DNA of 61,075 nucleotides from the IMG/VR virus record IMGVR_UViG_3300005530_000028, positions 1 to 61,075 of that record. One strand, 5' to 3'. The first letter of the stretch is position 1, and the number at the start of each line of letters is the position of its first letter. This stretch comes from a virus. Shown piece after piece: positions 1,973-37,626 of this stretch. The translations under genes and the position numbers were made by a program. A model generated the notes under the pieces. It had not been told where the DNA came from, ran no database searches, and saw only the letters and a list, made by a program, of their open reading frames with translations.

Positions 1973-2009
1973 GACGGGCAGATGGGATATGCTGCCTGTC
2001 CCCCGTTTT
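1973..2009 (+). terminator. Probable intrinsic terminator
   Basis: GACGGGCAG (1973-1981) pairs with CTGCCTGTC (1992-2000) with one G-U pair and a 10-base loop. A C-rich stretch and four T residues (2006-2009) follow. It sits in the 100-bp gap between the MGYTHYW gene and the next gene. Confidence 0.55.
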
Positions 2010-2031
2010 AATATGTACCTACGGAGGTAAC

Positions 2032-2166
2032 ATGCGTCTGTGGTGGTATAAGCTGATCTATAACTGGACAGGCCGCTGCATTAGCTTCTCGCCTGATCCA
2101 TGGGGTGTTTGTCGCGTGTGTCGATGGGCGCCTATCAACAAAGAGAACGAAGACGATCATGGCTAA
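2032..2166 (+). CDS. Small Trp/Cys-rich protein, 44 aa
   Basis: The ATG directly follows ACGGAGGTAAC, a perfect copy of the start motif, which fixes this start inside a longer open frame. The 44-aa product carries several Trp, a CRVC pair and an acidic C-terminus. Small phage proteins like this are often host-interaction factors, but no family was recognised. Overlaps the next gene by 8 bases. Confidence 0.55.
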   Translation: MRLWWYKLIYNWTGRCISFSPDPWGVCRVCRWAPINKENEDDHG

Positions 2167-2560
2167 CATCGACGCCCTCGAAAATCTTCGTCGTGTCGCC
2201 GAAGGATGTCTGCGCAATAACGACACTCTCAACATGGGGACCTTCTGGTCTAACTGCGGCACGTTTGGCTGCCTCGCCGGCTGGGCCGCGCAAGATCCGT
2301 GGTTTCAAGCTCAGGGGCTGGAGGTGATGAGCGCGACCCCTGCAGGTAATAGAGTTGGGGTTGTCGTGTGGTGGCGCCGCAAAGGAGGCGTACCATATGC
2401 ACTGCGCGATTTCGAGGCGCTGGAGGAATTCTTCGGGCTGGACACGTTCCAAGCCAACTACCTGTTCGCCGACAACCCGCATGCCACCAACGTCGAGACC
2501 ATTAAGGACTGGCATGACGCGATCGCGAGGATCAACGAGGTGATCCGTGGCGAAGTGTGA
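2159..2560 (+). CDS. Hypothetical phage protein, 133 aa
   Basis: I use the ATG at 2159 (MANIDAL), which overlaps the stop of the previous gene, rather than an upstream alternative start. The sequence has the pattern MGTFWSNCGTFGCLAGWAA followed later by a LEEFFGL-DTFQANYLF-HATN block. This resembles a widespread phage family of unknown function with a conserved Cys-Gly-T-x-x-C-x-x-G-W core. No enzymatic motif is evident. Overlaps the next gene by 14 bases. Confidence 0.65.
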   Translation: MANIDALENLRRVAEGCLRNNDTLNMGTFWSNCGTFGCLAGWAAQDPWFQAQGLEVMSATPAGNRVGVVVWWRRKGGVPYALRDFEALEEFFGLDTFQANYLFADNPHATNVETIKDWHDAIARINEVIRGEV

Positions 2561-2774
2561 GCGGTGGCACGTCTTGCTCTATTGGATGCTGGACGGAGAA
2601 CGCCATAAGGGCGGTCGCCGTGAAGCGCTAACCCCGCCGCGGAGCACATATGCTCTTGGTTTCTTTCGGAACGGCTACGTTGGTATGTCGTTTCCTGCTT
2701 CGTTTTATCCAACGACTAACGATCTACCTATGCGTCGCAGATGGGTAGATGTGTTCAAAGACCTGCGGCGGTAA
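2547..2774 (+). CDS. Small protein of the FPxxFY...DVFxDLRR family, copy 1
   Basis: GTG start at 2547 inside the end of the previous gene; 75 aa. The N-terminus is Trp/Tyr-rich and basic. The C-terminus reads FPASFYPT-NDLP-RRRWVDVFKDLRR. Five further genes between 3.9 and 7.8 kb share this C-terminal module, so this is a paralogous family. The stop TAA lies inside the GCGGTAAC motif. Function unknown; the spread-out duplication suggests early accessory or host-takeover proteins. Confidence 0.6.
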   Translation: MAKCERWHVLLYWMLDGERHKGGRREALTPPRSTYALGFFRNGYVGMSFPASFYPTTNDLPMRRRWVDVFKDLRR

Positions 2775-2793
2775 CCTAGAAAGGTAACAAGAC

Positions 2794-3921
2794 ATGAACC
2801 TACTACGTCTCAAGCGCGAGCTGCGTTCGTACATGGATGCGAACGTGCCTGTGCAGCTCATTTCCGCGCCGGGGCTGGGTAAGTCCGAGACGGTCGATCA
2901 GGCCGTCAAGGATTTTAGCCGGCAGGACAATGCCGAGTGGGGCATCGCCACGGTGCTCGCCGCGGCTTACACGCCCCCCGATGTGTTCGGCTATCTCGTG
3001 CCGACCGATCGGGTGATCGAGCGGGCCGATGGCACGACGGAGACCGTCAAGACTTCCGAGTTCACCATGCCGCCGTGGATGATCTCCGACGACGGCCGAC
3101 CCATGAATTCCTTCAAAAGGGGTATCGTGTTCTTCGACGAGTGGGACAAGGTCGAACCCGACACCAAGAAGGCGCTGGCCAACGTGCTGCTGAACGGCGC
3201 GGCGGGGCGCCACAGGACCCATAGGGGCATCGGCTTCGTGACCGCTGCCAATCGCGCCGAAGATCGTTCGGGCTCAACCAAGGAGTTCGATTTCATCATC
3301 AATCGTCGGGCCGAGCTGCATATTCGTCCCGACGTGGGCTCGTGGGAGGACTGGGCGGTGCGCAACGATGTGCCGCCGACGTTCACGGCGTTCGCCGTGC
3401 GGCGCCCGGAGATCGTCTTCTCGGGTCGTGTGCCCGACAAGCAGGGTCCGTACTGCACACCGCGCTCATTGGTGAAGTCTTCGCAACTTTGCGTCGCCGG
3501 TGGCCATCTCGATACCCAGACGGGTAACTTCGTCGGGCTGGGCGACGAGGACGCGGAGACAACGCTGAACGAGAAGCTCTCGGGCCTGATGGGACCCGAG
3601 GCAACCAACGAGTTGCTGATCTGGGCACGGCTCAAGACCGAGGTACCCGAGTTCGTCGAGATCGTGGCCGATCCGTCCAAGGCCAAGATCCCGACCAAGA
3701 TGGATGCCAAGATGCTGGTCGCTTACGACTGCGCCCATCGCATCGACGTGGCGAACGCCAGCAAGGTGGTCGAGTACATGCTGCGCATGGGGGCTGAGCA
3801 TCAAATGGTGTTCGGTGTCGCTTCGGTGAAGCGTAACTTCAGGCTGCTGCAGACCAAGGCGTTCGTGAATGATTTCATTCCGCGCAATCAGGGGATTATC
3901 TCTCTGGTCGGGATGAACTGA
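2794..3921 (+). CDS. MoxR/CobS-like AAA+ ATPase
   Basis: 375 aa. Walker A is APGLGKSE (K30), Walker B is IVFFDE (D115-E116), a sensor-1-like Asn occurs in TAANRAED (about N153), and arginines at 171-172 are candidate arginine fingers. This layout fits MoxR-type AAA+ proteins, which include CobS and RavA. Members act as hexameric ATPases with a VWA-domain partner to remodel or metallate targets. The partner is encoded at 4867-6276 (VWA plus HExxH), so a two-component machine is likely. The substrate is unknown; true cobalt chelation is unlikely because no cobalamin genes are present. The start follows GGTAAC-CTAGAAA-GGTAAC. Confidence 0.85.
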   Translation: MNLLRLKRELRSYMDANVPVQLISAPGLGKSETVDQAVKDFSRQDNAEWGIATVLAAAYTPPDVFGYLVPTDRVIERADGTTETVKTSEFTMPPWMISDDGRPMNSFKRGIVFFDEWDKVEPDTKKALANVLLNGAAGRHRTHRGIGFVTAANRAEDRSGSTKEFDFIINRRAELHIRPDVGSWEDWAVRNDVPPTFTAFAVRRPEIVFSGRVPDKQGPYCTPRSLVKSSQLCVAGGHLDTQTGNFVGLGDEDAETTLNEKLSGLMGPEATNELLIWARLKTEVPEFVEIVADPSKAKIPTKMDAKMLVAYDCAHRIDVANASKVVEYMLRMGAEHQMVFGVASVKRNFRLLQTKAFVNDFIPRNQGIISLVGMN

Positions 3922-3935
3922 CCCACGAGGGTAAC

Positions 3936-4172
3936 ATGGGCGATTTCTGGGAGTGGCGATGGTGGCGTAGTGGTGGGCGGCGTGCAAAGTTATTTACCTC
4001 TGGTATTAGCCGGTTCGAGTTTCGGCCAGTAGCTCACTACGTTCACCCAAACTACTCCGTCATGTACTTCCCGGTTAGTTTTTATCCAACACTAAAAGAT
4101 CTTCCGACCCAGCGCCGGGAGATCCAGATCTTCGACTGGCAACCCCTGACAATGGTTAACCTAGAGAGGTAA
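3936..4172 (+). CDS. Small protein of the FPxxFY family, copy 2
   Basis: 78 aa; the ATG directly follows GGTAAC (3930-3935). Trp-rich N-terminus (WEWRWWRS) and a C-terminal FPVSFYPT-KDLP-QRREIQIF segment matching the family. The tail after IF has diverged and ends VNLER, where the last codons and stop are written by the next start motif (CTAGAGAGGTAAC). Lies between the ATPase and its presumed VWA partner. Confidence 0.6.
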   Translation: MGDFWEWRWWRSGGRRAKLFTSGISRFEFRPVAHYVHPNYSVMYFPVSFYPTLKDLPTQRREIQIFDWQPLTMVNLER

Positions 4173-4176
4173 CATC

Positions 4177-4560
4177 GTGAAGAAAGAATTCCATTTGGTG
4201 CTGGCCTTCGACAGCGGCAACGAGGCGCTGATGAAGACCTACGAAGAGATCGTGATCCTGAAGGGTCGCGAGATCTTCGCTAGTGCCGTGCTGGCGCACG
4301 GTGCGATTAGAGATGCTTCGACGAAGCCCGAGATCCATCTCTACTGCGACGACTTCATCATGGGTCGCGAGGAGGTCGAGGTGAAGGCCAACGAGATCGC
4401 CCAAGGCGAGCCACCGCGGCTGGTGACGAACCCGACCAAGGAGCAGTTGGCGGCTGCTGTACCGGCGCAGGAGGTCGCCGGCGATACTGAGTTGAGCAAA
4501 AGCGTTGGCGGTGCCGGCACAAATCCTGTCAGCGGCTCAGCTTACGGCGATGAAGAATAA
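4177..4560 (+). CDS. Hypothetical protein, 127 aa
   Basis: GTG start three bases after GGTAAC. The N-terminal 80 residues look like a compact alpha/beta domain (KKEFHLVLAFDSGNEAL ... CDDFIMGREEVEV). The C-terminal third is Ala/Gly/Glu-rich and probably disordered. No recognised family. Position between the AAA+ and VWA genes makes it a candidate accessory subunit, which is inference only. Confidence 0.55.
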   Translation: MKKEFHLVLAFDSGNEALMKTYEEIVILKGREIFASAVLAHGAIRDASTKPEIHLYCDDFIMGREEVEVKANEIAQGEPPRLVTNPTKEQLAAAVPAQEVAGDTELSKSVGGAGTNPVSGSAYGDEE

Positions 4561-4852
4561 GCTCGAACGCCAGAGCCGCAAGCCGATCGAGAGCAAGCCG
4601 AGCACTCATCAATGGGCGCTGTGCGTCTACAACAGCTGGTGGCAGGGTTATCCTGTCAACGAGTACCGCTTCAATCGCGTCAAGAATTTCTACAGCGATC
4701 CGACGACCGGGCCGCAAGGTTGGTACCATACACAAGACAGTGGCCCGGTCTCGTCAGCGCTGGCCCCGAGCACCATGCAGATTTTCCGCAAGTGCCCGGT
4801 CTACCGCAACGATCTTCGCAGGATCGACGTGTTCGCCGATCTTAAAAAATAA
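4550..4852 (+). CDS. Divergent member of the DVFxDLRR family, copy 3
   Basis: 100 aa from the ATG at 4550, overlapping the previous stop by 11 bases. A TTG at 4505 is a possible longer start. The C-terminus reads RKCPVYRNDLRRIDVFADLKK, aligning with the family ending while the FPxxFY part is degraded. The central region is Trp/Tyr-rich like the relatives. Two stops before the motif separate it from the downstream gene. Confidence 0.55.
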   Translation: MKNKLERQSRKPIESKPSTHQWALCVYNSWWQGYPVNEYRFNRVKNFYSDPTTGPQGWYHTQDSGPVSSALAPSTMQIFRKCPVYRNDLRRIDVFADLKK

Positions 4853-4866
4853 CCTAGAGAGGTAAC

Positions 4867-6276
4867 ATGATTTACAGAAGGCATAAACTCATCAAGCTCA
4901 ACCCCGAAGGGTTGCGCCTGTGGGGCAACGACAAGGTGCGGCTGCAGTGGACGGTGCCGGCCTTCACGCATCTGCTTTATCGCATGATGAACCCCGACGA
5001 CACCGAGCAGGTCGCGTGGTTCACCAAGGAGGTGCAACGTGCGGCGACAGACGGAAAGCGACTTCTTCTCAATCCCGACTGGTACTTCCCGCTGCCCGAC
5101 AAGCAGCGCGTCTTCATCAACTGCCACGAGATCGCTCACGCTCTGTTCATGCATCCCGCGCAGTTCTACCTCCATCGCAAGGAAGATCGCGGCGTGTACT
5201 GGGCCGGCAAGACGCTGCCGTTCTTGCCTAAAGTGGCAAATTATGCGGCTGACTTCGTCATCAACGCGATGCTGATCGAAAGCAAGATCGGCGAGATGCC
5301 TCAAGGCGGCCTCTACGACACCAAGATCGCGACGTCCGACACGAGCTGGCAGGAGGCGTACCATCGGATCTGGGAGGAGTGTGAGAGCCAAGGTGGTACC
5401 TCCAAGGGTAACGGCGCCGGTGAGGCTGAGCCCGGCGAGGGCGAGCAAGGCGAAGAGGAAGACGGCGAAGGTCTGCCGCAGGACCCGGCCGACAAGGATG
5501 AACGCGGCAAGAACGGGCGCTTCGAGAAGGGCCAATTCGACAGTCATCTGGAGCCCGGTGCCACCGACCAGCTCAAGCCGACCGATAGCCGGGCGATGCC
5601 CGATCCGCAGCGCTGGACGCAGGCAATCATGGGGGCCAAGGCTGTGGCGCAGGGCACCGGCAACATGCCGGCCGCTCTGGAGAAGGTGCTGGACAAGCTC
5701 CTCGCGCCCAAAGTGTCGTGGACTGAGCACATCGAGGGGCTATTCGCCCGCAAGGTGCATGGCCACGCCTATGACTTCCGCCGCCTCGACCGGCGGCTGA
5801 TCGTCAGGAACATAGGGGCGCCCGGCAAGTCGGGCCACGGCTGTGGCACGATCGTCGTAGCGATGGACAGCTCCGGTTCGATCTATGCCGTGCCCGAGCT
5901 GATCGAGCGCTTCTTCGGTGAGACGGCGGGGATCTTCGAGCAGCTCAACCCGCGGCGGATCATCGTGATCTGGTGCGACGCCACGGTGCAGGAAACCTTC
6001 GAGATCGAGGACGCCGACGACCTGATGAAGTGCTTCTACAAGGGCGCAGTCGGCGGAGGTGGCACGGCGTTCAAACCGCCGTTCGACTGGATCGAAGAGC
6101 ACGACATCGACGATGTCGACGCCATGGTCTACCTCACCGATGGCGACAACTCCGACAAGGACGAGCTGGCCGCCATGGGTGAACCCAAGTACCCCGTGAT
6201 CTGGGGCTGCATCGCTGACGGCAAAAGTTTTCCCTTTGGCGATCAAGTGCGAGTGCCGGACGATGGCACGGCCTAA
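4867..6276 (+). CDS. CobT-like VWA domain protein with HExxH metallopeptidase-like domain
   Basis: 469 aa; the ATG directly follows CTAGAGAGGTAAC. The N-terminal domain contains CHEIAHALFMHP (HExxH at 87-91), as in the putative-metallopeptidase half of DUF2201 proteins. A Glu/Gly-rich acidic linker spans about residues 180-225. The C-terminal VWA domain has a MIDAS-type DSSGS at 334-338 and a later YLTDGD segment. MoxR-family ATPases usually work with VWA partners, and the ATPase gene lies about 950 bp upstream. The pair resembles phage CobS/CobT annotations; the real target is unknown. It overlaps the next small gene by 14 bases. Confidence 0.85.
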   Translation: MIYRRHKLIKLNPEGLRLWGNDKVRLQWTVPAFTHLLYRMMNPDDTEQVAWFTKEVQRAATDGKRLLLNPDWYFPLPDKQRVFINCHEIAHALFMHPAQFYLHRKEDRGVYWAGKTLPFLPKVANYAADFVINAMLIESKIGEMPQGGLYDTKIATSDTSWQEAYHRIWEECESQGGTSKGNGAGEAEPGEGEQGEEEDGEGLPQDPADKDERGKNGRFEKGQFDSHLEPGATDQLKPTDSRAMPDPQRWTQAIMGAKAVAQGTGNMPAALEKVLDKLLAPKVSWTEHIEGLFARKVHGHAYDFRRLDRRLIVRNIGAPGKSGHGCGTIVVAMDSSGSIYAVPELIERFFGETAGIFEQLNPRRIIVIWCDATVQETFEIEDADDLMKCFYKGAVGGGGTAFKPPFDWIEEHDIDDVDAMVYLTDGDNSDKDELAAMGEPKYPVIWGCIADGKSFPFGDQVRVPDDGTA

Positions 6277-6490
6277 GAGAACGTGGTGGTGGGTGGGATA
6301 CGCCGTCATGTGGGACCATGGCAACATCGCTGGGCTTCATAGCGTGAAGCGGAGACAACTGATCGCAATGGTGTCTTTGCATACTTCACACTCAAATTCC
6401 TGCTGCTTTCCCCGTAGCCTCTATCCCCACGTAAAGCATTTGCCGATACATCGTGTTATCATAGACGTATTTGCTGACCTGCGGAGGTAA
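6263..6490 (+). CDS. Small protein of the FPxxFY family, copy 4
   Basis: 75 aa, starting at an ATG inside the end of the VWA gene. The N-terminus MARPKRTWWWVGYA resembles MAPRPQIWWRVAWA of copy 6, so similarity is not limited to the C-terminus. The C-terminus is FPRSLYP-KHLP-HRVIIDVFADLRR. Its stop TAA is inside GCGGAGGTAAC and the next ATG follows directly. Confidence 0.65.
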   Translation: MARPKRTWWWVGYAVMWDHGNIAGLHSVKRRQLIAMVSLHTSHSNSCCFPRSLYPHVKHLPIHRVIIDVFADLRR

Positions 6491-6491
6491 C

Positions 6492-7301
6492 ATGGCCCTT
6501 TTCGGTGCTCGTTCGTCAAGAAGGCAAAAGCAGATAACATGCTTCGGCAGTCGCATCGGCAGCATAAACGGCGCGATCGACGCGCGTGCCAGAATGCATA
6601 ATCGCCACATCGTCACGAGCCGCCCGCATGTCAGCGAGCTGCTCAACTGGATCGTGCCGCCGGGCTATCGGAAATTTTGCCAAGACGTGTGGCACAATTT
6701 CAACAACGAGATCGACGCCGGCACTCGGCGAGCCAATGTAGCTTTGCCAGAAGAAATACCGTTCGGTGATGGCGTCTATCAGTCGCCCGGCATGTCGCTG
6801 GAGTTCGACTGGCGCAACGCCACCTGCGAGGAAGACAGCGACTGCTTCGTGCTGCCGCCTCATCTGCGCAACGTGAAGGCGTTTACCAGCGACACGCCGA
6901 AAGCGTTCCTCGACATGATCACCGAGTGGCAGACCAACGCCATCGAGTGGGGATTGGTGCGCAAGGTGGTCGACTGGCTCGATGACACTCTGGCGCCGAA
7001 CGATTTTGTGCAGGCGTGCTACCTGCTGCCGATGTTACCTTCGCTGGTAAAACATATCAGCGATGGCCGTGCGATTGTGCAGGCGGCCGGCTCTGTGCCG
7101 AGGAACCCGATGCGGGTCGACTTGCCTTGGCTGCTGGGATTGCAGCGCGCCAATCAGATACTGGCGGGGTCCGAGCTGATGGGAGAAGCAGACACGGAGT
7201 TGTCTTCGCCTGTCGACATGGTCATGAAGGTATCAGGGAACACAGTTCACCATCCGCTGTGGCCGTCTGCTTTCGATGCCGAGTACACGGCTCAGTATTG
7301 A
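6492..7301 (+). CDS. Hypothetical protein, 269 aa
   Basis: The start is fixed by the motif GCGGAGGTAAC directly before the ATG. The product is soluble, of mixed composition, with a run of Trp/Asp-rich segments in the middle. No catalytic motif is recognised. It contains a GTTACC-TTCGCT-GGTAAA near-palindrome in its coding sequence at 7034-7051. Unknown early phage protein. Confidence 0.6.
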   Translation: MALFGARSSRRQKQITCFGSRIGSINGAIDARARMHNRHIVTSRPHVSELLNWIVPPGYRKFCQDVWHNFNNEIDAGTRRANVALPEEIPFGDGVYQSPGMSLEFDWRNATCEEDSDCFVLPPHLRNVKAFTSDTPKAFLDMITEWQTNAIEWGLVRKVVDWLDDTLAPNDFVQACYLLPMLPSLVKHISDGRAIVQAAGSVPRNPMRVDLPWLLGLQRANQILAGSELMGEADTELSSPVDMVMKVSGNTVHHPLWPSAFDAEYTAQY

Positions 7302-7309
7302 GGAACCAT

Positions 7310-7543
7310 ATGCGCCACCACCGCCTGTTTGAGCGCCTACGCTACAAATTTCGCAATGGTCGGTGGGAGCTGAGACGTAGCCGCATAAGCGCTGAGAATG
7401 GAATGACCAAGTTCAATCGCGACAATCTGGCTGGGACAGCAGGCGACTTGTTATATACGAGCTTCCCATTGTGTTTTTACGCCACCAAGAAGTTTCCGTC
7501 TTACAGAAAAGAAATCAACGTCTTTCGTGACCTTCGGAGGTAA
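7310..7543 (+). CDS. Small protein of the FPxxFY family, copy 5
   Basis: 77 aa from the ATG at 7310 (MRHHRLFERLRYK), preferred over an upstream in-frame start that lies inside the previous gene. The N-terminal half is strongly basic. The C-terminus reads FPLCFYATKKFP-YRKEINVFRDLRR. The stop lies in TTCGGAGGTAAC, and the next family member starts two bases after the stop. Confidence 0.6.
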   Translation: MRHHRLFERLRYKFRNGRWELRRSRISAENGMTKFNRDNLAGTAGDLLYTSFPLCFYATKKFPSYRKEINVFRDLRR

Positions 7544-7544
7544 C

Positions 7545-7802
7545 ATGGCGCCAAGACCTCAAATCTGGTGGCGTGTTGCTTGGGCGCGAGACAAAGAGAC
7601 AGGCCGTATTGGTGGCCGGGGAAAGAAGCCCTATCTCAGCTCACGGATGGGAACAACAGGCAACGAGAGTGAGTTTCGTGGCATGGATCGAGGCTATTCG
7701 TGGCGCCACAAGTGTTGGTTTCCACTAAGATTTTACGCGACCGTCAACCATCTGCCACGCAAGCGTATCGAAATCGACGTGTTCAAAAATCTTCGGAGGT
7801 AA
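7545..7802 (+). CDS. Small protein of the FPxxFY family, copy 6
   Basis: 85 aa; ATG directly after CGGAGGTAAC. N-terminus MAPRPQIWWRVAWA and C-terminus FPLRFYAT-NHLP-KRIEIDVFKNLRR both match copy 4. Copies 5 and 6 are adjacent, the only tandem pair of the family. The stop again lies in the motif (CTTCGGAGGTAAC) that serves the next gene. Confidence 0.65.
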   Translation: MAPRPQIWWRVAWARDKETGRIGGRGKKPYLSSRMGTTGNESEFRGMDRGYSWRHKCWFPLRFYATVNHLPRKRIEIDVFKNLRR

Positions 7803-7805
7803 CAA

Positions 7806-8159
7806 GTGTCCAATCCCCCCGTACTGAGCCACCACGAGTATCGTATCATGTTTCGGCTGGCATACGACAACGCCTTGGCCAAGGTCAGCAGCTTCGACCA
7901 ACGCCTGCGCTACTACAGTGAGCTGCCGACGGTTACGCTGCCGCATCCCGGTTATATGAGAGGCATTCACTCGGCGATCGACGTAATGGCCGATGCAGAG
8001 CGTCACATCCAGCAAGACATCAAGCACTGCAGAGAGTGGCTGGAGCGGTACTCCAATATCGCCCGCTGGCTCGAACAGTTCCTCGCCACCGTCCGCGACG
8101 CTGACGACGAGGCGTGGATCGAAGGTATCCGTGAGTATCTTAACAGGAGCAAGAAATGA
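7806..8159 (+). CDS. Hypothetical helical protein, 117 aa
   Basis: GTG start two bases after GGTAAC. Predominantly helical, with many Arg/Glu/Trp residues and no recognised family. The stop overlaps the next ATG (ATGA), implying translational coupling with the coiled-coil protein that follows. Confidence 0.55.
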   Translation: MSNPPVLSHHEYRIMFRLAYDNALAKVSSFDQRLRYYSELPTVTLPHPGYMRGIHSAIDVMADAERHIQQDIKHCREWLERYSNIARWLEQFLATVRDADDEAWIEGIREYLNRSKK

Positions 8160-8452
8160 GTGAATTGAAAGCTGCCCTGCAGGCTATCCTGCAGGTGAAT
8201 TTCCGCCAGCCCGTGCCGGCGAACGATGCTGCGCACATCGCCGACTTTCTCGAACGTGCAGCGTTGGAGCTGAACCAACGTGTCGAGGCGGTCGAGCTGC
8301 GCGAGCAGGCGGTCAGCGCCCGCGAAGCCAAGGTCTCCCTGATGCAGGAAGAGACCACGGCCCAGATCAAGACCATCCGCACGCTGGGAAGAGTTTCCCA
8401 AGTGATGGAGATCCGGCCGAAGCGAGTGGGCTGGCTGAACCTGCGGAGGTAA
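8156..8452 (+). CDS. Coiled-coil hypothetical protein, 98 aa
   Basis: The ATG is preceded by AGGAG and overlaps the previous stop. Residues about 30-75 form a likely coiled coil (ALELNQRVEAVELREQAVSA). The C-terminus ends WLNLRR with its stop in CTGCGGAGGTAAC, so even this unrelated protein acquires the LRR ending through the motif. Function unknown. Confidence 0.6.
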   Translation: MSELKAALQAILQVNFRQPVPANDAAHIADFLERAALELNQRVEAVELREQAVSAREAKVSLMQEETTAQIKTIRTLGRVSQVMEIRPKRVGWLNLRR

Positions 8453-8454
8453 CC

Positions 8455-8871
8455 GTGCGCTTCGACCTGAAGAAGCCCTGTAAAAACTGTCCGTTCAACA
8501 AGGCTGATACGCGCATCGTGTTCGCCTGTCGTGAGCGGGCTGAAGAAATTGAAGAGCAGGCATACCGACAGGGCTTTCCATGTCACCTATCGGCGGTGTT
8601 TGACGAAGACAAGGAAGACGCAGGCTTTGAGCCCGGTCCAAATACGCAACACTGCGCGGGTGCGTTCATTCTTTATCTGAACGAAAGCGAGTATGGGTGG
8701 CCGGCAATTGACAACGACGAAGAGTTGGCAGCTAAGCTGGAGAAACAAACACAAGGCAATCGTCATCTTGTGTTTGACAGTATTGAAGACTTCCTATCAG
8801 CCAATGAACCCAAAAACCATCCACGTCATAAATCCAATAAAAGGCGCAAGAAAAAGACCTTGACAAGGTAA
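8455..8871 (+). CDS. Cys-rich PCKNCPF protein (DUF6283-like)
   Basis: 138 aa, GTG start one base after GGTAAC. The N-terminus carries PCKNCPFNK, later CRE, PCHLS and HCAGAF, giving a set of Cys/His suitable for binding zinc. The pattern matches the CxxCPF family common in phages (function unknown). The last 25 residues are Lys/Arg-rich. A second member lies at 9452-9808. The gene's end carries the -35-like TTGACA of the next putative promoter. Slightly AT-richer than its neighbours. Confidence 0.65.
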   Translation: MRFDLKKPCKNCPFNKADTRIVFACRERAEEIEEQAYRQGFPCHLSAVFDEDKEDAGFEPGPNTQHCAGAFILYLNESEYGWPAIDNDEELAAKLEKQTQGNRHLVFDSIEDFLSANEPKNHPRHKSNKRRKKKTLTR

Positions 8872-8888
8872 CACGGGTACCCCATATC
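8860..8888 (+). promoter_or_regulatory. Putative sigma70 promoter overlapping motif copies
   Basis: A perfect TTGACA (8860-8865) is followed after 17 bases by a weak CATATC -10 candidate (8883-8888). GGTAAC lies immediately downstream of the -35 (8867-8872) and another at 8910-8915, directly before the ribbon-helix-helix gene. The arrangement resembles the promoter at 16206, where the motif also lies in the spacer. Confidence 0.4.
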
Positions 8889-8918
8889 CAACAGGTTTCA
8901 ACCTACAGAGGTAACACA

Positions 8919-9146
8919 ATGGCGAAGCGCAAGAACAAGGTCGGCCGCCCGAAGATCGTCAAGCGCGGTGAGGTGCACATGTCGTGTCGTGTGCACGCGG
9001 CGGACAAGAAGGGCTTTGCCACTGTGGCCCGTCAGCGGGCGGTCCCGCAAAGCGAGCTGTTCCGGCGCTTTGTCGCGGCGATCGGGCGAGCCGGTGCCAA
9101 GACGAAGGCTGTGACGATCCGCATTACGGGGTATTCTGCGCTTTAG
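8919..9146 (+). CDS. Putative ribbon-helix-helix DNA-binding protein
   Basis: 75 aa; ATG three bases after ACC-TACAGA-GGTAAC. After a basic N-terminal arm (KRKNKVGRPKIVKRG) the sequence VHMSCRVHAADKKGFATVA followed by VPQSELFRRFV fits the Arc/MetJ-type pattern of one beta strand and two helices. Such proteins bind operators as dimers. It is followed by a terminator and preceded by a motif-bearing promoter candidate, so it may be a short transcription unit. It is my leading candidate for the protein that reads the GTTACC-N6-GGTAAC palindrome; that link is inference. Confidence 0.55.
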   Translation: MAKRKNKVGRPKIVKRGEVHMSCRVHAADKKGFATVARQRAVPQSELFRRFVAAIGRAGAKTKAVTIRITGYSAL

Positions 9147-9195
9147 AAGTTCGTCGCGCGGGGTGCAGCCTTAGCAGCCAGCCCTGACGTGACCT

Positions 9196-9232
9196 GCGGC
9201 GAGCGTGTGTACGTGCGCTCGTCGCTCCTTTT
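9196..9232 (+). terminator. Probable intrinsic terminator after the RHH gene
   Basis: GCGGCGAGCG (9196-9205) pairs with CGCTCGTCGC (9216-9225), ten pairs with one G-U, followed by TCCTTTT. It lies in the 103-bp gap between the ribbon-helix-helix gene and the XRE gene. No clear promoter was found in the rest of that gap. Confidence 0.65.
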
Positions 9233-9249
9233 CAAACGGAGAGGGTTCA

Positions 9250-9489
9250 ATGCTGGTGAAGCAACTGCGTGAAATACGCCTCAAACAAAAGCGCAGCCAG
9301 ATGGACGTAGCCGAGGACGCCGGCGTTGCACAAGTCGCCGTGATGGCGTGGGAAGGCGGACGCCGGCGACCGCGGCTTGATCTGTTCGAGGCGTGGGCCG
9401 GCGCGCTGGGCTACAAGATCGTACTCGAACCGATTACCCAAGAAGGTAAACATGCTTCCAACAGTCAAGCACAAGACACCGTGCAATGA
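9250..9489 (+). CDS. XRE-family helix-turn-helix regulator
   Basis: 79 aa; ATG preceded by GGAGAGGG. The core LREIRLKQKRSQMDVAEDAG followed by VAQVAVMAWEGGRRRPRLDLFEAWAGALGY is a classical Cro/CI-type HTH domain. It ends in a short polar tail. It overlaps the next gene by 38 bases. As a small single-domain repressor next to early replication genes it may control the early-to-middle switch; there is no sign of a lysogeny module. Confidence 0.8.
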   Translation: MLVKQLREIRLKQKRSQMDVAEDAGVAQVAVMAWEGGRRRPRLDLFEAWAGALGYKIVLEPITQEGKHASNSQAQDTVQ

Positions 9490-9808
9490 GTGTCCGTTCC
9501 GGCGCAAGGCTGCACCGGGATGGCTGGGCGGCGGCACTGTCGAAAGCTGGCATGCTAATCTTGTTTTTGGCGACACGGCATTTATCTGCCACACGGGTGA
9601 GCGGAAGGGCAAACGCTACTTCTGCGCTGGCTCGATGATCCACTACCGCAACCAACTCAAGACGCCACGCGATCCAGAGTTTGCCGCGATGGTGCTGAAG
9701 TACAGCAAGGACGTCGAGCACGTCTTTCAATGGCCGCACGAATTCAAGCAGCATCACGAAGCTGGGTTGCTGGCGCAGCGAGTACGTACCCGCGCAGGTA
9801 ACACATGA
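9452..9808 (+). CDS. Cys-rich PCNECPFRR protein (DUF6283-like)
   Basis: 118 aa from the ATG that follows ATTACC-CAAGAA-GGTAAA, a near palindrome. PCNECPFRR, FICH and FCAGS give four Cys and a His placed as in the relative at 8455-8871, so the two are paralogues separated by the two regulator genes. Probably a zinc-binding fold; function unknown. Its stop overlaps the polymerase start (ATGA). Confidence 0.65.
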   Translation: MLPTVKHKTPCNECPFRRKAAPGWLGGGTVESWHANLVFGDTAFICHTGERKGKRYFCAGSMIHYRNQLKTPRDPEFAAMVLKYSKDVEHVFQWPHEFKQHHEAGLLAQRVRTRAGNT

Positions 9809-11718
9809 GCGACTTGCTCTACGTCGTCGGCGACCTCGAAACCTACTACAACACTGCGTCCGGCTATTCGCTGCGTGCGAAGGGCATGGACATACCCAGC
9901 TACATTCTCAGCCCAGAGTTCGAGGCGATCGGCTGCGCGTTCAAGGTCAACGGTCAAAAAACAGGGTGGGTCGATGGGCCAGACATTCCTCGTTTCCTGT
10001 CTTCTCTGGGTGATCCTAGCCGCGTCGTTTTTATCGCTCACCATCTACTTTTTGATGGGAGTATTTTTTCGTGGTGCTACGGTTGGGTCGCCGGGTTCTA
10101 TGTCGATACGCTGGCTCTTAGCCGGGCTCTTCTTGGTTATGTTTTGCGTCGCCATGACCTTGACACCGTCGCCCGATATCTCGGTGTGGGATCGAAGGGC
10201 ACCACCATCCACAAGGTGAACGGCCTCAACCGGCAAGCGATCATCGACGCTGGCTTCTACAACGAGTACGCCGAGTACAGTTGCGGCGATGCCGATCTCT
10301 GCTGGGGGATTTTCAAACATTTGGCGCCAGTAATGCCAGTGAGCGAGCTACAAATCTGGGACATCGTGCATCGCATGGCGCTGCAGCCGGTCCTGAAGCT
10401 CGACCAGCTATTGCTGCATGAGCATCTGGCGAACGTGCGCGCCGAGAAGGAGCTGCTCCTTCAAGAAGCCGGCATCGCCGATAAAGCTGACCTCATGAGC
10501 GACCAGCGCTTCGCCGATATTTTGATCGGCATGGGCGTGACACCACCGACGAAAATATCTCTTCGCACCGAGGAAGAGACTTGGGCGTTCGCCAAGACCG
10601 ACGAAGGCATGAAGGCGCTGCTCGAACATCCCGACCATGCTGTGCAGGCTGTCACCGCAGCTCGGCTCGGGGTCAAGACCACGATCGAGGAAAGCCGCAC
10701 CGCACGCTTCATCAATCTCTCGGGACTGACGTTCCCGCACTACGGCACCAACCTGATGCCGGTGGCGCTGAAGCCCTCAGGTGCCCACACCCATCGTCTG
10801 TCAGGCGACTGGAAGCTGAACCAGCAGAACCTCACCCGCGAAAACAAAGTGCGCAAACGGCGTGCTGCTCTGCGCGAAAGCATTGTTACCCCTGAAGGTT
10901 ATTCGATGGTAGTGGCTGACGCGCGCCAGATCGAGCTGCGTGGGACCGCCATGTTCTGTGGGCAGGAAAGTCTTTTGGCGGCACTACGCGATCTCAAGCG
11001 CGATCCCTATTCCGAGTTCGCCTCGCGTTGCTTCGGCTATCTTGTCACCAAGGCCGACATCGGCCCGAGGTTCTGCGGCAAGACCGGCATGCTGAGCTGT
11101 CAGTACCAAGTGGGCTGGCGCAAGTACCGCGGCAGCGTCAGACATCTCAGCGTCGAACAGATCGGCACGCTGGTCGATCTCAGTGCCGCCGAGGCGCAGC
11201 TCCACGTGAATATCTATCGCACCGACAACTTCAACATCACCGGGATGTGGAAGATCCTGCAGTACCGGGTGATACCAGCGATGACCCGTCCCGACTGCGA
11301 CTTCATGCTGGGACCTGTGCGGGTAATGTTCGAGAAGATCGTGCTGCCCAACGGTATGTGTCTGCACTATCACGGCCTGCACAAAAGCCAAGCCGATGGC
11401 AACTGGCTGTTCACCTACGGCTGGGAGACCAAGCGGCTCTACGGCGGCAAGCTGCTGGAGAACATCATCCAAGCGCTCTGCAAGATCATCGTCATGGACG
11501 TGGCGCTGCGCGTAAAGAAGCCGTTCGAGAAACTCTTCGAGATGGCAGCGCTCAAGATGCAGAGCCACGACGAGCTGATGTATGTCTGCAGGGACCAGTA
11601 CGCGCCCGAGCTGAAGGGCGTCCTGATGCAGGAGCTGAGGGTACCTCCTACGTGGTGGCCAGAGATCCCCCTCGACGTCGAAGCGGAGATCGGAACATGC
11701 TACGGGAAAGTCAAATGA
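9805..11718 (+). CDS. Family A DNA polymerase with 3'-5' exonuclease
   Basis: 637 aa. The exonuclease part has GDLETY near residue 10, an AHHLLFDGSIF segment and YSCGDADLCW, matching Exo I, II and III. The polymerase domain shows motif A VADARQIELR (D372; the usual Ser before QIE is Arg), motif B FCGKTGMLSCQYQVG (K426) and motif C SHDEL (H588-D589-E590). It should replicate the phage genome. A GTTACC half-site lies in the coding sequence at 10885. The stop overlaps the next ATG. Confidence 0.93.
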   Translation: MSDLLYVVGDLETYYNTASGYSLRAKGMDIPSYILSPEFEAIGCAFKVNGQKTGWVDGPDIPRFLSSLGDPSRVVFIAHHLLFDGSIFSWCYGWVAGFYVDTLALSRALLGYVLRRHDLDTVARYLGVGSKGTTIHKVNGLNRQAIIDAGFYNEYAEYSCGDADLCWGIFKHLAPVMPVSELQIWDIVHRMALQPVLKLDQLLLHEHLANVRAEKELLLQEAGIADKADLMSDQRFADILIGMGVTPPTKISLRTEEETWAFAKTDEGMKALLEHPDHAVQAVTAARLGVKTTIEESRTARFINLSGLTFPHYGTNLMPVALKPSGAHTHRLSGDWKLNQQNLTRENKVRKRRAALRESIVTPEGYSMVVADARQIELRGTAMFCGQESLLAALRDLKRDPYSEFASRCFGYLVTKADIGPRFCGKTGMLSCQYQVGWRKYRGSVRHLSVEQIGTLVDLSAAEAQLHVNIYRTDNFNITGMWKILQYRVIPAMTRPDCDFMLGPVRVMFEKIVLPNGMCLHYHGLHKSQADGNWLFTYGWETKRLYGGKLLENIIQALCKIIVMDVALRVKKPFEKLFEMAALKMQSHDELMYVCRDQYAPELKGVLMQELRVPPTWWPEIPLDVEAEIGTCYGKVK

Positions 11719-14678: not shown

Positions 14679-16202
14679 ATGCAAGAGCCGTTGCTGCGAG
14701 TGCCGGCACGGCCGGACGTGCTGAACCTGTTCCCCGACTTCAAGGAGACGGAGCCGGGGTTTGGGGTCATCAAGCACGACATCGGCGCCACGCTGATGCT
14801 GCGCCATCTTGGCTTCGAGGTGCAGTCGCCGGTGCGGCTGCACTACGACTTTCCGCACCCGCCCGGCAAGCCACCTTTTGAAGTTCAGATCCAGACGGTC
14901 GAACGGCTGACGGAGAACAAACGCTTTTACGTGCTCTCCGGCATGGGCGTCGGCAAGACGGCCTGTGCAATCTGGGCGTTCGATTACCTGCGAAGGTTAG
15001 GGCTCGCCAAGAAGATGCTGGTCGTGGCGCCACTGTCGACGCTCAAGTTCACATGGATGCGCGAGTTCTTCGATTTCTGCCCCCACCTCAAAGTCGCTGT
15101 GCTCCATGGCACCAAAGCCCAACGCCTGAAGGTGCTCGCGACTGACGCCGACGTCTACATCATCAACCACGACGGCCCCTTGACGATCGCCGAGGCGCTG
15201 AAGACGCGCAAGGACATCACCAACCTTGTGCTCGATGAACTGGCTGTCTACCGCAATCCCACTGATCGCTCCAAGTGGATGCAGGAATATGCTCAGCACA
15301 TCGAATGGGTGTGGGGCATGACTGGCGCGCCGACGCCGCACGAGCCTACCGACGTCTATGGGCAAGCCAAAATCGTCACGCCCAACCGGGTGCCGATGCG
15401 CTTTGGCCGCTTCCGCGAGCAGCTCATGTACCGGGTGAGCCAGTTTATCTGGGTGCCCCGCAAAGACGCCAACGAGCAGGCGTTCAACGTGCTGCAGCCG
15501 AGCGTGCGCTTCCAACTGGAAGACGTGACTGAGCTACCTCCCTATGTCTCGATCCGGCCCGATGTCGATCTGGGACCGAAACAGAAATTCATCTACGAGG
15601 CGCTGCGCAAAGACGCGTACGCCATGGTCGGCAACCAGACGATTACTGCGGTGAACGCAGGCGCTGCCCTCAACAAGCTCCTGCAGGTGTCGTTGGGCTG
15701 GGTCTACGACAGCGACGGCAACGTGATCCAGCTCGATAACAAGCCGCGGCTCAAACTGTTGGGCGAGTTGATCGAAGGCGCTACCGGCAAGGTGATCGTG
15801 TTCTCGGCTTTCAAGCATGCCCTGTCCGGTATTGAACAGTTCATCACCAAGGACCTCAAATACAGTTGCGCCGTCGTCTCGGGCGATACCCCTATGGGTA
15901 AACGCAGTCAGATCTTTCATCAGTTTCAGAACGAGCTGCATCCTCGTGTGCTCGACGCCCATCCGCAGTGCATGGCGCACGGCATCACGCTCACCGCAGC
16001 CGACACGGTATTGTGGTTCGGGCCGATCACGAGCAACGAAATCTATGATCAGGCGAACATGCGCATCCGTCGCGTTGGTCAAAAGCGCAAACAATTGTTT
16101 GGTCATATCCAAGCGACACCGGCCGAGCGCAGGGTCTACAATCTTCTAATTGGACAACAGAACATGCAGGCACAACTACTCGACATGTTCAGGGAAGATT
16201 AA
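14679..16202 (+). CDS. SNF2-type DNA helicase/translocase
   Basis: 507 aa; ATG two bases after GGTAAC. Motif I GMGVGKT (about residue 90), motif II LVLDELA (DELA replaces the more usual DEAH), motif III GMTGAPTPHEPTD, and C-terminal motif VI QANMRIRRVGQKR. The compact organisation is typical of phage SNF2-family helicases encoded beside a VRR-NUC nuclease. It is expected to support replication or recombination. A promoter-like sequence follows its stop. Confidence 0.88.
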   Translation: MQEPLLRVPARPDVLNLFPDFKETEPGFGVIKHDIGATLMLRHLGFEVQSPVRLHYDFPHPPGKPPFEVQIQTVERLTENKRFYVLSGMGVGKTACAIWAFDYLRRLGLAKKMLVVAPLSTLKFTWMREFFDFCPHLKVAVLHGTKAQRLKVLATDADVYIINHDGPLTIAEALKTRKDITNLVLDELAVYRNPTDRSKWMQEYAQHIEWVWGMTGAPTPHEPTDVYGQAKIVTPNRVPMRFGRFREQLMYRVSQFIWVPRKDANEQAFNVLQPSVRFQLEDVTELPPYVSIRPDVDLGPKQKFIYEALRKDAYAMVGNQTITAVNAGAALNKLLQVSLGWVYDSDGNVIQLDNKPRLKLLGELIEGATGKVIVFSAFKHALSGIEQFITKDLKYSCAVVSGDTPMGKRSQIFHQFQNELHPRVLDAHPQCMAHGITLTAADTVLWFGPITSNEIYDQANMRIRRVGQKRKQLFGHIQATPAERRVYNLLIGQQNMQAQLLDMFRED

Positions 16203-37599: not shown

Positions 37600-37626
37600 A
37601 TGTTACCTCCAGAGGTTACGTCGAGC

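Follow-up and report, generated by a model that had tools for sequence, protein, structure and literature searches.

Do the small genes that lie scattered among the replication genes of an environmental phage belong together, and if so, what might their products do? The question is raised by the first part of the window, the full IMG/VR record IMGVR_UViG_3300005530_000028 of a single environmental virus contig (61,075 bases), from a phage known from environmental DNA only. A sequence-only reading of this DNA had proposed that six open reading frames (ORFs), starting at positions 2547, 3936, 4550, 6263, 7310 and 7545, are paralogues with a common C-terminal module, copied repeatedly as a cassette together with a motif that joins a stop codon to a Shine-Dalgarno (SD) sequence. 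All six ORFs are present at these coordinates on the + strand. Among isolated phages, the closest relatives found belong to the RHph_TM3_14A type of Rhizobium phages (amino-acid identity of 37% for the ATPase and of 42% for the DNA polymerase), and the first 12 kb of the window have no DNA-level match to phage records.

Evidence for a protein family

When 463 small ORFs of the window were compared all against all, only five pairs reached E<1e-3, every one of them inside the proposed family. Membership was evaluated using hidden Markov model (HMM) profiles built either without the tested gene (leave-one-out profiles) or without any window sequence (other-phage profiles). With leave-one-out profiles, 7545 (E 1.3e-13), 3936 (1.9e-11), 6263 (7.4e-10), 2547 (6.5e-9) and 7310 (6.1e-7) were recovered; the best non-family ORF of the window reached E 0.05 or worse. 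The other-phage profiles retrieved the same five genes, with E values of 1.8e-7 for 7545, 4e-6 for 3936, 1.4e-5 for 6263, 0.003 for 2547 and 0.013 for 7310. These profile scores indicate that the paralogous family is real for five of the six ORFs. The sixth, 4550 (4550..4852, + strand, 100 residues), fares differently: its leave-one-out E value is 3.1, it is not recovered by the other-phage profiles and its G+C content at third codon positions (GC3), 0.75, is like that of core genes. One match speaks for it, that of its tail to ORF 8791 of the related contig L007, located in the equivalent slot (E 0.002, in that single comparison), and its family-like part is limited to the terminal RRIDVFADLKK. 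From these comparisons, 4550 is a possible, highly diverged member, and a doubtful one.

The family proteins are small (70-100 residues), aromatic-rich and mostly basic, with a net charge of up to +13, whereas the core proteins are mostly negative. In an alignment of 15 members, W(W)xV recurs near the N-terminus, the middle part differs in both length and sequence, and the C-terminal module is conserved. The tail consensus is FPxxxYPTxxxLPxRRxEIx[IV][WF]; it is found in five of the six window genes, 4550 keeping the last residues only. The alignment and the profiles thus bear out the proposal of a common tail attached to widely differing middles. The longer N-terminal signature that had been put forward, MAxPxxxWWxVxWA, holds for 6263 and 7545, which are 31% identical over their full length, but across phages it is reduced to roughly W(W)xV.

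The sequence-only reading had suggested looking for the family in related phages. Contigs were gathered with the ATPase as an anchor, the ATPase alignment being a better query than single proteins (searches with the polymerase or the DUF2201 protein yielded almost nothing); searched against bacterial genomes, this alignment gave no match. The family is present in two further environmental phages, in differing copy numbers. L007, 59% identical in the ATPase, has eight members with a leave-one-out E<0.01, a marginal one at 11030 (E 0.18) and, at about 25.9 kb when the contig is read in reverse, a ninth clear member that follows a primase/helicase-like gene. L008, 55% identical in the ATPase, has three members with a leave-one-out E<0.01, a fourth ending in RRTEIDLWR and about seven further candidates, whose common feature is mainly an I-x-[IL]-W end; its ORF 13236 is 37% identical to 7545 over 73 residues. 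The copies of L007 and L008 mostly occupy the same core-gene junctions as those of the window. In both contigs the end-of-protein pattern is concentrated on the coding strand (13 ORFs versus 0 on the other strand in L008, 8 versus 1 in L007). In more distant relatives, the loci contain 0-3 end-pattern ORFs per strand and gave no match when searched with the family profile. L006, a contig nearly identical to the window, breaks off within the ATPase gene and shows the 2547 copy only. Within these searches, the family appears restricted to three phage lineages. In one of the eight L007 members (9040, at about 9037-9250), the WWR start (MYWWRCSYG-stop) and the tail lie in different frames, which may reflect decay of this copy or a fault in the assembly.

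The tail is kept as protein and some slots are ancestral

The tails of the window copies share 50% of their residues, and residue identity in the tails lies between 50 and 60% overall; of the codon positions, the second changes most slowly among the window copies, and divergence is greatest at the third. Where two tails carry the same residue, the codon is identical at a frequency of 0.33 in the window against 0.50 expected from core-gene codon usage, and of 0.35 against 0.48 expected in L007. Silent sites in the tails are therefore saturated, and the tail is kept as protein. This saturation excludes recent copying or DNA homogenisation of these copies, and with it recent gene conversion or duplication of the tail DNA. 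A known structured RNA was also considered and rejected, as no Rfam match is found in 2000-9000 and third positions are the most divergent.

Positional evidence points in the same direction. The start of 6263 and those of its counterparts in L007 and L008 overlap the stop of the DUF2201 gene by exactly 14 nucleotides in all three phages, and 2547 and ORF 6663 of L007 share the same 14-nucleotide overlap with p2162. Because these overlaps are conserved, at least two slots predate the split of the phages. Most family genes have a GC3 of 0.44-0.77, versus 0.70-0.91 in core genes, a low value that is typical of fast-turnover accessory genes.

The tails nevertheless tend to resemble each other within a phage. 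The nearest neighbour of a tail belongs to the same phage in 11 of 14 cases (p=0.0006), and in 8 of 14 (p=0.05) when three columns around VF/IW are omitted; grouping of the tails by slot was not found (p 0.42). Such a likeness fits either old lineage-specific duplications that replaced resident copies or coevolution with a phage-specific partner.

The end of the tail also recalls a peptide that docks on the sliding clamp, for which the consensus is QL[SD]LF. It can be asked whether the tail is a degenerate version of this motif that binds the host clamp and hinders host replication. The x-[IV]-x-[IV]-[FW] pattern near the C-terminus and the position of the genes in the replication segment would agree with this; the glutamine of the first position is, however, absent in all members and conservation reaches about 15 residues further upstream than needed, which makes clamp docking a very improbable explanation.

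The stop/Shine-Dalgarno motif

The near-palindromic motif ACCYNNNNRGGTAAC(A)(C)ATG combines a dyad, a stop codon, an SD sequence and often the next start codon. Its core ACCYNNNNRGGTAAC is present in 43 copies in the window and in none in shuffled sequences, and copies lie on both strands genome-wide (for instance at 1467, 2025, 4167, 4860, 6485, 7538 and 12521 on the + strand and at 37608, 42343 and 47154 on the - strand). L007 has the identical motif. As the sequence-only reading had noted, it stands at or directly after the stop codon in all six window genes: the TAA that ends 2547 and 4550 forms the left end of TAACCTAGARAGGTAAC, and for the other four the stop lies in the right arm (AGG-TAA-C). 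A copy on the 5' side is seen for two of the six genes (3936 and 7545). The motif serves as ribosome-binding element for the gene downstream and is not specific to the family; it could play a double role, as ribosome-binding site and as DNA operator. A non-family gene at 8455-8868, whose GC3 of 0.54 is as low as that of family genes, has its start preceded by an AGGTAAC motif.

The terminal 3-4 residues of the proteins (LRR, LER or KGNT) are a translation of the ribosome-binding motif that serves the next gene, encoded as CTG-CGG-AGG-TAA-C, as CTT-GAG-AGG-TAA-C or, in L007, in another frame of the motif; the stop of a member thus adjoins or falls inside the ribosome-binding signal of the next gene. 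In the example CTGCGGAGGTAACATG (6480..6493, + strand), the motif encodes the terminal LRR and the stop of the 6263 gene and directly precedes the next start. Terminal LRR or LER residues in such phage proteins should accordingly be discounted, being translated ribosome-binding sites. Is the whole tail a by-product of this motif? Conservation spans about 22 residues upstream of the motif-coded end, and most L008 proteins stop one or two residues after I-x-I-W, without the motif-coded LRR or LER. The similarity is therefore not confined to the final DLRR, and the alignment and codon data rule out the by-product explanation beyond the last 3-4 residues.

Two further explanations give the motif a central place. 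The ORFs could matter mainly as translational relays, on which ribosomes terminate before restarting on the core gene that follows, the peptide as such being unimportant. The 14-nucleotide overlaps of starts with upstream stops, and stops located in or beside the next ribosome-binding motif, would fit relays. Yet a dispensable peptide hardly accounts for some 22 conserved residues with saturated silent sites, nor for a tryptophan-rich N-terminus that is shared too, and this explanation is considered improbable. Alternatively, the genes could be recently copied mobile cassettes made of a gene and its motif, as had been proposed at the outset. Several copies per phage, a 3' motif on every window copy and a low GC3 would fit such cassettes. 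However, DNA-level similarity between the copies is gone, at least two slots are ancestral, and the motif is spread over the genome and missing on the 5' side of four of the six genes. Repeated copying of a cassette is thus largely refuted, and only a slight likelihood is left to it.

Searches for homologues

No credible homologue of the family was found in Pfam, PHROGs, NCBIfam or PDB, and 15 members compared with the defence and anti-defence models of PADLOC gave no match up to E 1. A weak match of 2547 (residues 22-71, E 0.022) to PHROG 29210, whose function is unassigned, was shared by no other of the 15 members scanned and was treated as chance. Against 50,697 phage records, tblastn gave no match for 7545, L007 6915 or L008 13236, and only chance-level short matches for 2547. 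A degenerate-codon scan of IMG/VR returned the L007 and L008 contigs only, plus three matches that do not read as members, and a similar scan of the genome contigs of 84,980 genomes gave chance matches only. One apparent relative, L088, was also judged a chance match. A description of such a family was not found in a literature search of limited coverage. None of the libraries tested contains a description of the family. Small non-structural orphans are a known kind of phage gene, of which the interleaved arrangement with a constant tail and a variable body is a variant.

Gene neighbourhood

The + strand run is ordered p2162, AAA+ ATPase, p4177, DUF2201/VWA protein, p6492, further small genes and DNA polymerase, and the family genes occupy junctions between the core genes of this replication segment. 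Upstream, p2162 (2162..2560, + strand), a core neighbour without assigned function that is 53% identical in L007, overlaps member 1 (2547..2774, + strand, 75 residues, GTG start); the tail of the latter, FPASFYPTTNDLPMRRRWVDVFK, lies at about 2691-2759 and is followed by the motif-coded DLRR. The MoxR-like AAA+ ATPase (2794..3921, + strand) matches the ATPases of PHROG 1297 (1e-46). Between it and p4177 is found member 2 (3936..4172, + strand, 78 residues), with the tail FPVSFYPTLKDLPTQRREIQIFD at about 4068-4136. No function is assigned to p4177 (4177..4560, + strand), which is 47-49% identical in L007 and L008. After the doubtful 4550 comes the metallopeptidase-like/VWA protein (4867..6276, + strand; Pfam DUF2201_N 1e-21, DUF2201 1e-14), inside whose gene member 3 begins (6263..6490, + strand, 75 residues, tail at about 6407-6487). 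Next to it, p6492 (6492..7301, + strand), also without assigned function, is 21-26% identical in L007 and L008. Member 4 (7310..7543, + strand, 77 residues, tail at about 7463-7540) and member 5 (7545..7802, + strand, 85 residues, tail at about 7719-7799), the clearest of the window, close the series.

This neighbourhood suggests that the proteins could be adaptors of the phage's own machine, the constant tail docking on the ATPase and DUF2201/VWA pair and the variable body bringing different clients for remodelling or inactivation. AAA+ proteins are usually addressed by a short hydrophobic C-terminal signal, in three phages the family genes flank the ATPase and DUF2201 genes directly and also lie between them, and from one phage to another the tails vary along with the ATPase. 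On the other hand, more distant phages with the same gene pair are without the family, and one L007 copy lies elsewhere, after the primase/helicase-like gene. Adaptors of this kind are considered unlikely, although they remain a more probable explanation than relays or cassettes.

Proposed function

The explanation that we favour, with about an even chance of being right, is that the family consists of lineage-restricted early accessory proteins. The tryptophan-rich N-terminal part and the C-terminal part would together make up a shared scaffold or docking element, and the variable middle would direct each copy to a target of its own, probably a host protein during takeover. A docking partner differing from phage to phage would account for the agreement of tails within a phage. 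Host targeting is plausible from the position of the genes in the replication segment, and stays putative. In favour of such accessory proteins are the leave-one-out and cross-phage profiles, the saturated silent sites, the slow second codon positions, the copies of L007 and L008 in mostly matching junctions, the conserved overlaps, the low GC3, the charge, the within-phage likeness of the tails and the lack of a homologue in the libraries.

Several observations weigh against it. The within-phage similarity of the tails fits old lineage-specific duplications equally well. The 2547 protein is unchanged between the window and L006, so that no rapid strain-level diversification is seen (one shared copy). 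In L007 and L008, some members are not basic. Finally, two AlphaFold2 models are of low confidence (pLDDT 67 and 70, pTM 0.43 and 0.46), with no fold match in PDB at E<=0.001; because of this low confidence, the scaffold is put forward as a proposal.

A run of small 'hypothetical' genes in these phages is in any case one family. If the bodies bind different targets and have one docking tail in common, the phage would hold a small modular library of effectors, which would help to find weak points of the host and to study how orphan phage genes originate and diverge.

Comparison with other systems

Other phages with the ATPase gene have small-gene series of their own. In L009, a related environmental phage, six small genes in tandem (6790-8319) upstream of the same ATPase end in GYLIPLED or GYLIPLEA followed by acidic residues (GYLIPLEDDDE), and their tail DNA includes the ribosome-binding site of the following gene (TTGGAGG) and, in most cases, its start as well. 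As read from the sequence, nucleotide differences in the tail core GYLIPLED are all silent save one D-to-A change, and the L009 tail therefore seems to be kept as protein. A run of small genes, variable bodies, a constant tail and a ribosome-binding site for the next gene in the tail DNA are common to this family and to that of the window; homology between the two is unsupported (profile comparison probability 0.1). Single-copy small genes ending in FFGYTIPLYND or FGFYIPLYDPDD are found in L012 (about 14720-14985), L014 (to 7786) and L011 (15629-15892), at or near the DUF2201 slot of 6263, the L012 gene starting at the DUF2201 stop. Profile comparison does not support these genes as homologues of the window family either; it links them to the L009 family (hhalign E 1e-4, probability 57), the sole such link found for these other small-protein families.

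Additional expansions of small proteins are seen in L017 (Rhizobium phage RHph_TM3_14A; about twelve proteins of the type AMLLGxxY...DADTMEP in the same early region, at 7031-10407, 19140, 19755 and 22888), in L022 (1264, 1761, 3975 and 6668, near the same ATPase, with a CCPxCG start and a LAKLFxSN end) and in L023 (5931, 6290, 6775, 8265 and 15739; five copies of another unrelated family near the same ATPase). A broader proposal, tentative and rather unlikely, is that phages with the ATPase and DUF2201 genes each expand their own family in this early segment, as fast-turnover effectors or adaptors having a constant element for a phage-specific partner and variable bodies directed at different targets. 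The window family would then be one of at least five such expansions (window/L007/L008, L009, L017, L022 and L023).

In the mycobacteriophage Adephagia, 25 of 66 tested small non-structural genes are toxic or strongly growth-inhibiting (PMC11373665). They are like the window family in being small, non-structural and unassigned in function, and no sequence relation is claimed. In Cluster K mycobacteriophages, many small genes share a repeated sequence (SAS/ESAS) upstream of their starts that includes the ribosome-binding site (Pope et al., 2011, PMC3203893), and about half of the sites also carry an inverted repeat (PMC3203893). The likeness to the window motif resides in a repeated, start-proximal sequence with a ribosome-binding site. 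The window motif ACCYNNNNRGGTAAC has an internal dyad and a stop codon and occurs on both strands, whereas the Cluster K SAS is the asymmetric GGGATAGGAGCCC; the two differ in sequence, symmetry and strand use and are only analogous. Moreover, the SAS genes of Cluster K belong to many different families, whereas the small genes described here make up one protein family.

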